The notes beneath the pieces are model-generated. The model did no database searches, had not been told where the DNA came from, and worked only from the letters and a program-made list of their open reading frames with translations. A program made the translations under genes and the position numbers. From contig NZ_CP110389.1 in the NCBI RefSeq assembly GCF_026015985.1, positions 1,954,001-2,018,000 on the forward strand: a stretch of 64,000 bases of DNA, read 5' to 3'. Positions 9,373-11,008 of the stretch are shown here, one piece after another. The stretch is from Rhodopseudomonas sp. P2A-2r (lineage in GTDB: Bacteria; Pseudomonadota; Alphaproteobacteria; Rhizobiales; Xanthobacteraceae). Every line of letters starts with the position of its first letter. Within the stretch, counting starts at the first letter, position 1.

Positions 9373-9375
9373 GCG

Positions 9376-9600
9376 CGCTGTCGCCCTTCGTTTCCCGGGC
9401 GCGCGACCGCGTCGTTCGTGTCCCGGTCGCACTGTTGCTCTTCGTGTCCCGGGCGCGCTGCAGCACAGGCGATGCGCAGCATCGCCGACGGTGCTGCTGC
9501 GCAGACCCGGGACCCAGCTTGCTTGATGTCAACAAGCTGGGCCCCTGGATCTGCGGCGCACCACGCCGCAAGCGCGGCGCAGTGCACCGCGTCCGGGGTA
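9376..9600. repeat. Composite GC-rich dispersed repeat (TCCCGGGCGCGC type)
   Basis: Two copies of a CGTNTCCCGGGCGCG-like unit lie at 9388-9460, followed by nested inverted repeats. One is CCCAGCTTG ... CAAGCTGGG around 9512-9541. It closes with GCGTCCGGGGTACGGAA. It has no coding features and follows the LysR gene directly. It may end LysR transcription, but no canonical T tract is visible. Confidence 0.6.
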
Positions 9601-9647
9601 CGGAACGGCAGCGACAGGCGCGCAGAGAAAATATTCCGCAATTCCTC

Positions 9648-9675
9648 TTGACGGTTTCCCATCTAAGATTATAAT
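9648..9675 (+). promoter_or_regulatory. Near-consensus sigma70 promoter upstream of a structured non-coding element
   Basis: TTGACG at 9648-9653 and a perfect TATAAT at 9670-9675 are separated by 16 bp. The segment is AT-rich against very GC-rich flanks. No start codon with a believable gene follows; a highly structured element begins about 7 bp after the -10 box. Alphaproteobacterial housekeeping promoters often lack such a good -10, so this should be strong. Confidence 0.6.
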
Positions 9676-9681
9676 CCCTCG

Positions 9682-10118
9682 CATCCCGCCCCACCGAGAG
9701 GGGCGTATCGCGATCGTCAGGTTCGCGGGGCGGGGTGCGGTGGACGCAGCAGCGTCAGGCGCGGAATTCGGTTCAGGGCTCGCCAGAATGGCCAGTGAGA
9801 ACCGGAGGAAGCGCAGACGACAGCGCTGCGCGGACGGCGAAGGCGTGTGGTCCTGGTGCCCCGCGTGAGCACCAAGCCCGGTGGAGAGTCCGCGGCAACC
9901 CGTCCGCGGAACACCCTCAACCGGAGGCGACGGCGACGAGAAACCGTGTCGGCCGCCGGGGAGAGCACGCAATAAGCCGTTAACACCATCGCGCGCGGAA
10001 CGCCGGATCAGTCCGGTGTGACCGTGGCAAGCCTTGTGCGCTTACTACACTTTGCGCACAAGCCCATGGGTGCATCGGGCACCCGGCGTTCCGCGCGCCC
10101 TCTCGATTTCGAGGGGGC
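9682..10118 (+). ncRNA. Candidate structured non-coding RNA / repeat-derived RNA element
   Basis: About 440 nt without a plausible gene but with ordered hairpins. CGCCCC/GGGGCG is at 9687-9705 and TGGTGC/GCACCA at 9854-9874. A perfect 16-bp long-range stem joins 9991-10006 to 10083-10098. That stem encloses CCGGATCAGTCCGG and a 9-bp stem joining CTTGTGCGC (10033-10041) to GCGCACAAG (10054-10062). A 9-bp hairpin (one wobble) with ATTT loop follows at 10097-10118. A strong promoter sits immediately upstream. From memory, elements sharing GGGGAGAGCACG...AATAAGCCG followed by such a long stem recur in Bradyrhizobiaceae genomes, but I know of no function. Ends are approximate. Confidence 0.5.
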
Positions 10119-10218
10119 AAGGGAATGCAGCACACCCCGGGCGCGCAAGCGTCGCGGGATTGTTGTTGCTTGGCTGTTTGACAGTTGAATCGGATGTTCA
10201 GGCAAGGCGCCTGAAGAA

Positions 10219-10405
10219 TCCCTCCCCGGAGCGCGGCGCAGCCGCGCGAGGCGGGGAGGGTCGGCCGAACAAAGGCGATGCGCAGCATCGGCGAAGTGGA
10301 GGCCGGGGTGGGGCGCGCCACGCGCTGCAGTGTTTGCTGCGCGTCCCCCACCCGACCGCGCTGCGCGCGGCCACCCTCCCCACCGCGAAGACGCGGGGGA
10401 GGGGA
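10219..10405. repeat. Dispersed CTCTCCCCGC-type palindromic repeat, second copy
   Basis: Same family as 1522-1699: CCCTCCCCGGAGCGCGGC...GGCGGGGAGGG at one end, then GGCGATGCGCAGCATCGGCGAAG. It closes with CCACCCTCCCC...GGGGGAGGGG. It lies between the candidate ncRNA and the DUF1328 gene. No gene is seen in it. Confidence 0.7.
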
Positions 10406-10439
10406 AAAGGAAGAGCGCACTACCAGATCAGCTCGGCCG

Positions 10440-10613
10440 CTACGCCCGGAAGATGGTGAACCCCAGGATCAGCAGCACCACGAAGATGATCACGAAGATA
10501 TAGAACAGCACCCGCGCCACGTCGGCCGAGGCCGCCGAGACGCCGGTGAAGCCGAGAATGCCGGCCACGATCGACACGACAAAGAAGATCAGGGCCCACT
10601 TCAGAATGCTCAT
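10440..10613 (-). CDS. DUF1328 (UPF0391) small membrane protein
   Basis: A 57-residue protein with two hydrophobic helices (about residues 5-25 and 33-53) separated by a short ASADVARV turn. It opens [19 protein letters not shown], the usual look of the YtjA/DUF1328 family. The start at 10613 has GGAG 8 nt upstream; a longer frame to 10787 adds unrelated residues. A good EcfG-type promoter lies 25-51 bp upstream, so it is probably a general-stress gene. Molecular function is not established for the family. Confidence 0.9.
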
Positions 10614-11008
10614 CGCTTGACTCCGTTGCTGCGGGACAAAACGCCACATGCCGGTGAAAGTTCCGGCGGCGGAACGCGCGGCGGGAGGGGAGCGCCGCTG
10701 CCGGCAGGGGCAGCCGCAGCGCCGCTCTAAACCCCATATTAACCAAGGGATCGGTAAATGAAGATGCGCGAACAGCGCGTTAGCCATCGTGACGCCCGGT
10801 CGGCAAGAGCTTTCGGAACTGCGGTTCCGGTATCCGGCAAGGGGGCGGCGGCGACGGTTGACGATCGCGGCGCGCGATGCGCTATTTGGTCGGTCGCGAG
10901 GGCATCCTGCCGGATTAACGTAAGCGCCAAAATTCGTTTGTGCCGCCTTGCTGTTGATCTATGAGATTCGGCGGGTTCGGCGTTGGCCGGGCCGGCAAGA
11001 GGTACGAG
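10614..11008. other. Non-coding stretch between divergent genes
   Basis: About 395 bp between the DUF1328 gene and the first exopolysaccharide glycosyltransferase. The EcfG-type promoter at its left edge is listed separately. The rest has short palindromes (for example GCGGTTCCGG near 10823) and a modest AT-rich patch near 10732-10760. No convincing gene or consensus promoter for the rightward cluster could be picked. Confidence 0.5.
10638..10664 (-). promoter_or_regulatory. EcfG (general stress response) promoter for the DUF1328 gene
   Basis: Reading leftward, GGAAC (10664-10660) is followed after exactly 16 bp by CGTTTT (10643-10638). GGAAC-N16/17-CGTT is the established consensus for the EcfG sigma factor that drives the PhyR-NepR-EcfG general stress response in alphaproteobacteria. 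It sits 25 bp before the start codon of a small membrane protein, a typical regulon member. Confidence 0.7.

Follow-up and report, generated by a model that had tools for sequence, protein, structure and literature searches.

Ribosomal RNA (rRNA) operons are multicopy and evolve in concert, and HEARO/OMEGA and insertion sequence (IS)-linked RNAs are dispersed structured RNAs with many copies. Large ornate bacterial RNAs include GOLLD, ROOL and OLE (PMC12286853), and an account of concerted evolution lists 26 multicopy genes, which are protein-encoding (PMC6053082). In Rhizobiales, the alpha-r14/NfeR1 small RNAs (sRNAs) are multicopy, with conserved sigma70 promoters and six copies in S. meliloti; NfeR1 is about 120 nucleotides (nt) long by its Table 1 coordinates and forms three hairpins with anti-Shine-Dalgarno (anti-SD) loops (PMC7143759). 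For B. japonicum USDA 110, the sRNAs BjsR1-BjsR10 (some in up to four copies) and the repeats Br-REP1 and Br-REP2 have been reported, Br-REP2 being said there to belong to a larger repeat, data not shown (PMC5082802), and the strain has been studied by differential RNA sequencing (dRNA-seq) (PMC4842269). Here we describe an element of Rhodopseudomonas sp. P2A-2r in which a promoter precedes a predicted structured RNA of about 510 nt. It lies in a 64-kb stretch (the window; positions 1,954,001 to 2,018,000 of NZ_CP110389.1) of the 6.74-Mb single-contig genome, G000 below. All coordinates are those of the window, and all parts of the element are on the forward (+) strand. Our preferred interpretation, to which we give a probability of roughly 60%, is that the element is one copy of a free-standing, dosage-amplified and trans-acting structured RNA gene, with a fold under selection and copies homogenised by gene conversion, as judged from sequence comparison.

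Like GOLLD, ROOL and OLE, the RNA is large and highly structured, with covariation support. Unlike them, it has no Rfam 15 match at threshold, has many dispersed chromosomal copies and was found in only one bacterial family in an order-wide sample, the comparison being one of sequence and fold alone. With alpha-r14/NfeR1 it shares the form of a multicopy alphaproteobacterial RNA gene with a conserved sigma70 promoter; it differs from NfeR1 in its length, up to 32 matches per genome, one global fold and concerted evolution. The dispersal, structure and many copies recall the HEARO/OMEGA and IS-linked RNAs; the present RNA differs in that it lacks an Rfam match at threshold. As with rRNA operons and other concertedly evolving genes, the copies in a genome stay similar across separate loci; the genes treated in PMC6053082 are protein-coding, whereas the present element is presumed to be a non-coding RNA (ncRNA). 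The BjsR RNAs and Br-REP repeats are likewise intergenic RNAs and repeats of the same bacteria. However, none of 14 stretches at the published BjsR1-BjsR10 transcription start site (TSS) or 5'-end positions in genome G516 matches any of four profiles of the present RNA at E 10, and identity with the published BjsR sRNAs is rejected at these 14 positions, BjsR10b and BjsR10c aside (the coordinates of G516 agree with the end of nifH at the expected place). The Br-REP1 and Br-REP2 consensus sequences as given in PMC5082802 (CCGGAATCTCGAGATTCCGG and the Br-REP2 sequence) are, judged by eye, short palindromes of other sequence, and by eye alone no Br-REP-like palindrome was seen in 9625-10191.

At the gathering threshold, Rfam 15 has no match in the whole window. 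For 9400-10420, 17 matches were returned at E<=10, all far below threshold. Four loci of a related class (class II, below) gave five matches below threshold at E<=1, the best being sX15 (39.6 bits vs 55), upstream of the RNA, and eight further loci (five titled Bradyrhizobium) gave one at E<=0.05, below threshold and outside the RNA. With no match at threshold, we reject membership of an Rfam 15 family, the large ornate RNAs, RNase P, transfer-messenger RNA (tmRNA) and group I and II introns included; ARAGORN found no transfer RNA (tRNA) or tmRNA genes in the window. No RNA recognisable as this one was found in the literature searched, which mostly lay outside subscription papers (the BjrC survey among these), nor was any ncRNA of unknown role found described there as joining conserved promoters to a covarying global fold and to concerted evolution like that of rRNA. 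A reading of this DNA made before any search (the sequence-only reading) had suggested that it might belong to a family of repeats that are transcribed, or be a large ncRNA not yet described; leaving the transcript aside, this suggestion is supported by the copies, the fold and the absence from Rfam.

Copies, promoter and covariation

Twelve copies of the element, here termed class I, were identified in G000, ten of them near full-length and two diverged; the remaining rows of the copy search were second pieces or antisense self-matches. What these copies have in common begins with an AT-rich block and the promoter hexamers, goes on through the RNA and closes with a 3' block. At the end of that block is the box GGCTGTTTGACANTTGAATC, in most cases 70-90 nt downstream of the long stem described below. 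With at most one mismatch the box occurs at 18 places in G000, ten at known copies and eight new. The new places carry class II. Its promoter is of the same kind and its 5' domain is similarly built, with GAGGGGCG enclosed by a terminal helix; the body differs, and the box is present. A similarity search with one class II copy identified about 16 places in G000. The 11-mer GCTGTTTGACA occurs exactly 22 times in this genome: in ten class I copies, eleven class II copies and one unrelated stretch. Class II is present in 17 of the 18 genomes of the genus, the same 17 as class I. The 3' box is frequent in the genus and less frequent outside it; TTTGACA lies up to 190 nt downstream of 7/9 copies in G000, 17/28 in G015 and 15/18 in G017, of 9/22 other copies and of 13/56 copies from named genomes, and in none of 133 control stretches.

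The near-consensus sigma70 promoter seen in the sequence-only reading is present, with TTGACG (-35) at 9648-9653 and TATAAT (-10) at 9670-9675, separated by a 16-nt spacer. It is the sole sigma70-like site in 9373-10430, where shuffled sequences lead one to expect 0.1. The claim that homologues keep the promoter holds within the genus: scores of at least 9 of 12 were obtained for 12/12 class I copies in G000, 27/27 in G015 and 20/20 in G017, and for 13/14 class II copies in G000 (L051 and two of the ~16 class II copies, which have no regular core, were left out). At least five of six -35 bases match in 10/12 class I copies of G000. Mean pairwise identity within a genome is 0.88-0.99 for the -35 and 0.78-0.93 for the -10, and just 0.50-0.63 for the spacer (11, 26 and 19 copies of the 12, 27 and 20 in G000, G015 and G017, the rest having a -35 out of register). 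Because the hexamers are conserved while the spacer diverges, the comparison of these three genomes indicates selection on the promoter within the genus to which G000 belongs. Directly 5' of the -35 is an AT-rich, UP-element-like block (9625-9640), kept among copies as AAAATATTCC or AAACATTTTTTCCTAT, that may act as a UP element. The foot of the first helix (P1) is 6-7 nt past the -10 in 12/12 class I copies of G000, and this foot is the predicted transcription start, at 9682-9683.

The predicted RNA (9680-10125) folds at -247.1 kcal/mol (z -7.35), a value equalled by none of 100 shuffles, in keeping with the earlier description of a highly structured element. The fold had also been proposed to be conserved, and compensatory changes are seen among homologues in P1, in the long stem and in the global fold. 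P1 (nine pairs) was scored by sequence landmarks and on alignment A1, and not on A3, because MAFFT misaligns the Bradyrhizobium 5' arm of this helix. By landmarks alone, 156 unique copies (two of 158 unique sequences left out) have 87.7% standard pairs, vs 81.7% (maximum 83.1%) when the 3' sides are re-dealt and at most 59% when the pairing is slid. On A1 (78 selected sequences, reduced to 43 by pattern and to 39 after four of odd length were dropped), P1 shows 16 double-changed cells vs 3.7 in shuffles, and 0/500 shuffles are as good. In the long stem, 38 unique stems are 94.0% paired, vs 86.3% (maximum 89.8%) with 3' sides re-dealt; of the 181 sequences in this test, 15 without the right landmark and four without the left were left out.

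RNAalifold on 14 cross-genus sequences gave 82 pairs; double changes are seen at 24. A 64-pair fold drawn from this result is 97.1% paired in A3, with 63 double-changed cells vs 21.2 in shuffles. The same fold, fixed in window coordinates beforehand, was applied to 22 unused sequences, which with the window form A4. In A4, 94.9% of cells are paired and 75 are double-changed, vs 21.7 in shuffles; 0/500 shuffles do as well, and slid folds are paired in at most 55.2%. The 22 were drawn from 108 copies by dropping 42 without the 3' landmark, 41 without the class I body motif, one that was cut and two near-duplicates. One of them, L112, owes its selection to a false 3' landmark and was kept; with the window excluded, 96.3% of 1338 cells are paired without L112 and 94.8% of 1397 with it. 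On these counts, the RNA fold is under selection across genera. Two features expected of a free-standing ncRNA gene are seen: a promoter that appears to be under selection, in three genomes of the genus, and compensatory changes in sequences outside the set from which the fold was derived.

Distribution and synteny

A model of the class I 5' domain (R1) matches 17 of the 18 genomes of the genus, with 1-32 matches each; the one genome missed is 81% complete. The genus of G516, which is probably Bradyrhizobium, has matches in 257 of 265 genomes, mostly several per genome (1 to at least 20, with up to 20 candidates scored in each) and 12 in G516. In this Bradyrhizobium-type genus, which includes the soybean symbiont USDA 110, a large, conserved and structured element unnamed in Rfam is thus carried by 257 of 265 genomes. 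Under stricter filters, an order-wide sample yielded matches in 9/297 genomes, none of them outside the family of the window. Within that family, a search at the DNA level detected the element in at least 58/198 genomes and at least 15/47 genera, counts that are a floor because only three candidates were scored per genome. A pattern scan of named genomes, which fixes the loop of the 5' domain and leaves P1 free, identified at least 120 stretches; the 80 titles listed name Tardiphaga, Rhodopseudomonas, Bradyrhizobium and metagenome-assembled genomes (MAGs) with wider labels (Hyphomicrobiales, Alphaproteobacteria etc.). Of 225 profile matches, eight without a regular core and seven by E-value or length were left out.

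Many positions of copies are shared among species. For 16 of the 27 copies in G015, a flank matches that of one of the 20 G017 copies fetched (G017 has 32 model matches). RNA bodies in 14 syntenic G015-G017 pairs are on average 0.910 identical, all cross-genome pairs 0.910 and G015 paralogs 0.929 (L048, L051, L008 and two G017 copies cut by contig ends left out). In G000, 8/12 loci have a same-side, same-orientation flank match to a copy of a relative, two have flank matches solely in the other orientation among the matches listed, and two, including the window copy, have none (four loci without a regular core left out). Four G000 copies were compared with their syntenic partners; for three of them this identity is 0.55-0.58 and the average identity to their own paralogs 0.84, 0.84 and 0.74, the body alignment being rough at such distances. 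These identities argue that copies are homogenised within a genome, probably by gene conversion.

L233 and L234 of G000 have flanks that correspond to the two opposite sides of a single G017 copy, L098, the pattern expected if copies recombined in a rearrangement; these copies thus mark a likely breakpoint. On G017 contigs C4, C8, C10, C13 and C16, a contig end is only a few hundred bases or less from several copies; short-read assemblies therefore probably break at the repeat and undercount copies. Copy L167 comes from a MAG that bears the label Candidatus Acidiferrales; its contig, 3.9 kb long, may be misbinned and belong to the window's bacterial family.

Interpretation and alternatives

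If the element is a free-standing RNA gene, most copies would be transcribed into an RNA of ~510 nt that acts in trans as the core of a ribonucleoprotein (RNP) or RNA-only assembly, and copy number would set the RNA dose, as with rRNA genes. Since both classes share the 5' domain, and often the 3' box, and differ in the body, the ends would be expected to serve synthesis, stability or assembly, and the body a class-specific function. A broader proposal, which we put forward as a tentative possibility, is that the two ~500-nt classes, with a closed global fold and ends in common, form an abundant, dosage-controlled RNA machine of housekeeping scale, with rRNA-like upkeep by gene conversion, peculiar to the Bradyrhizobium-Rhodopseudomonas-Tardiphaga family and missed by annotation.

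A number of results weigh against reading the element as a dosage-amplified RNA gene. Upstream of the 115 named copies for which the upstream sequence was long enough we counted 61 sigma70 sites, 34 CAAATCA-type motifs, 15 dyad-like motifs and five copies with neither, the 61 coming from loose automatic scoring that takes in at least one Bradyrhizobium-type promoter (L117). The sigma70 consensus is missing from many Bradyrhizobium copies, though other upstream motifs recur there. The claim that homologues keep the promoter is weaker outside the genus, where other motifs often stand in place of sigma70; the start position seems to be kept and the control of transcription changed. Eight of the 265 genomes of the second genus have no model match (G080 among them has a DNA match), and copy number ranges widely, from 0 to 32 matches in the genus of G000, so the RNA is hardly essential everywhere. 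Similarity to some member of the derivation set exceeds 0.80 for ten of the 22 held-out sequences, reaching 0.958 for L210; the 12 least like that set are 92.9% paired, vs 87.2% (maximum 89.2%) in shuffles. The covariation counts are not independent events, because copies are related and homogenised. Paralogs in G017 (0.910) are no closer than cross-genome pairs, and L011, the diverged copy that was fourth in the G000 comparison, resembles copies of its own genome no more than it does others. Finally, no counterpart of the window copy was found beside the orthologous upstream LysR gene in eight relatives, and copies thus come and go.

The main and strongest rival is a transcribed selfish repeat, a non-autonomous element with its own promoter that formerly spread via RNA or DNA copies, is now homogenised by gene conversion and renders no service to the cell. 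Such an element would persist by the same means, and it would be dispersed, multicopy and variable in copy number, as observed; it also agrees with the absence of the window copy beside LysR in the eight relatives, the likely breakpoint at L233/L234 vs L098 and the several G017 copies at contig ends. We nevertheless consider it unlikely, given that positions are common to species (16/27 G015 copies with a G017 flank match and 8/12 G000 loci, two of these eight matching the two sides of one G017 copy) and that compensatory changes extend across genera. The spacer and upstream sequence are moreover more diverged than the hexamers and the 5' domain, which is not expected of a recent insertion; shared positions and diverged spacers speak against a recent mobile insertion in general, the window copy itself being non-syntenic. 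Exact-pattern searches of viral contigs and BLAST against phage records gave no matches, and BLAST against plasmids gave one partial match (NZ_CP100605.1 325449-325617, 30% of the query). On these results we reject a phage or plasmid origin; they also count against a selfish repeat.

Three further explanations carry much less weight with us. A DNA- or cis-acting element whose transcription is incidental, for instance one that insulates convergent genes from each other or serves as a recombination site, is suggested by G017, where convergent genes flank 13 of the 18 copies whose neighbours on both sides were called; in G000 this bias is unseen (3/12; neighbours in both genomes are from heuristic gene calls), and covarying RNA helices and conserved promoter hexamers are unexpected for a DNA site, which makes it improbable. 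More improbable still is a 5' leader or riboswitch-like regulator of a downstream gene. A promoter and structured RNA do stand 5' of a co-directed gene in 4/18 G017 and 5/12 G000 copies, but 14/18 G017 copies have no co-directed gene next downstream, and the next likely gene 3' of the window copy is on the opposite strand (frame 10440-10787), a call that the heuristic also makes. Because few G017 copies have a co-directed downstream gene, gene context fits a free-standing unit better than a leader. Least probable of all, in our estimate, is a messenger for a small protein, either the 82-codon frame (9735-9983) inside the RNA or another. This frame starts at a conserved RTGCGGTGG and is kept in 7/12 G000 copies, and the sole plasmid match lies under an annotated hypothetical protein; yet in most G015 and G017 copies the frame ends after 14 codons, single-base indels distinguish copies from one another, and the signal is in base pairs. 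We judge the frame to be spurious and reject a protein gene on its lack of conservation in G015 and G017. The statement in the sequence-only reading that no frame looks like a protein accordingly needs amending as to the existence of an open frame, and stands as to its conservation.

Given the annotation over the partial plasmid match, the RNA genes may in places have been recorded as spurious proteins. RNA repeats of this kind might explain some such 'hypothetical proteins', as well as assembly breaks and rearrangements at copies.

Parts of the RNA and neighbouring repeats

The element was originally delimited as 9648-10118. The promoter and stem coordinates within this span are correct; its extent is not, as the conserved unit runs from ~9625 to 10191, and in G000 copies aligned in a single orientation the conserved block reaches 70 nt past 10118. 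The 5' domain (9681-9738) comprises P1 (9681-9692 x 9727-9738), an inner hairpin and a near-invariant loop, GAGAGGGGCG (9696-9705). Conservation of the loop in the named copies is partly due to hit selection, because the search pattern fixes the loop. Within the loop, GAGAGGG (9696-9702) is complementary to 10098-10104, and the two are proposed to form a closing helix, and with P1 a pseudoknot. This pairing is present in 94.9% and 96.3% of cells in two cross-genus alignments and is not proven by covariation, because it is nearly invariant.

The central domain is closed in the cross-genus fold by GCGGTGG (9737-9743) with CCATCGC (9986-9992), 100% paired in A3 and, in two parts, 98.6% and 100% in A4. 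No double change is seen in this helix; one pair occurs as G-U, G-C and A-U in A4. An alifold of the G000 copies only instead pairs 9737-9749 with 9944-9956, and since this fold differs in part from the cross-genus one, the central closure is tentative. Inside the domain, CGTGTGGTCCT (9844-9854) pairs with GGGAGAGCACG (9959-9969) in 100% (A3) and 98.0% (A4) of cells, with double changes at two pairs and one pair, respectively. Also present are a hairpin (9855-9860 x 9868-9873) with double changes at 4/6 pairs in A3 and A4, and a helix (9931-9935 x 9954-9958) with double changes at one pair in A3 and two pairs in A4. The motif GGGGAGAGCACG...AATAAGCCG, which the sequence-only reading had linked to long-stem elements of Bradyrhizobiaceae, is found here and recurs in relatives; most of GGGGAGAGCACG is paired with CGTGTGGTCCT in the cross-genus fold.

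The 3' domain (9993-10096) is built on the long stem 9993-10006 x 10083-10096, which has double changes at 4/14 pairs in A3 and A4. From the sequence, 9991-10006 and 10083-10098 form a perfect 16-bp stem, as first described. The cross-genus fold opens its two outermost pairs, with 9991-9992 and 10098 pairing elsewhere. In the single-sequence fold, a hairpin CCTCTCG..CGAGGGGG (10099-10117) competes with the pairing of 9696-9702; the promoter/terminator scan reported no terminator-like site at 10099-10117. A tail stem-loop and the box GGCTGTTTGACAGTTGAATC (10172-10191) make up the rest of the unit (10126-10191).

Upstream of the RNA (~15-45 nt 5' of it, copies L107-L226), the promoter spacer contains operator-like dyads or motifs that vary with the lineage. 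Bradyrhizobium-like copies have TTCCGAAAATCGGAA-type and GTCGGGCAAATCA sequences, and some Rhodopseudomonas copies have TCCTA..TAGGA. These dyads and motifs hint at regulators of the RNA genes.

Further upstream, a palindromic repeat resembling repetitive extragenic palindromic (REP) sequences, at 9440-9600 in the window, precedes many copies of both classes. With the class II query, 25 of 44 matches in G000 cover only the first 93 bases, the upstream part, and one of these is at 9443-9517 of the window, on the minus strand. On the 3' side of the element, 10215-10410 contains a GC-rich inverted sequence, CCTCCCCGG...GCGGGGAGGG, which with its relatives also occurs in the flanks of some other copies and looks like a separate repeat family.
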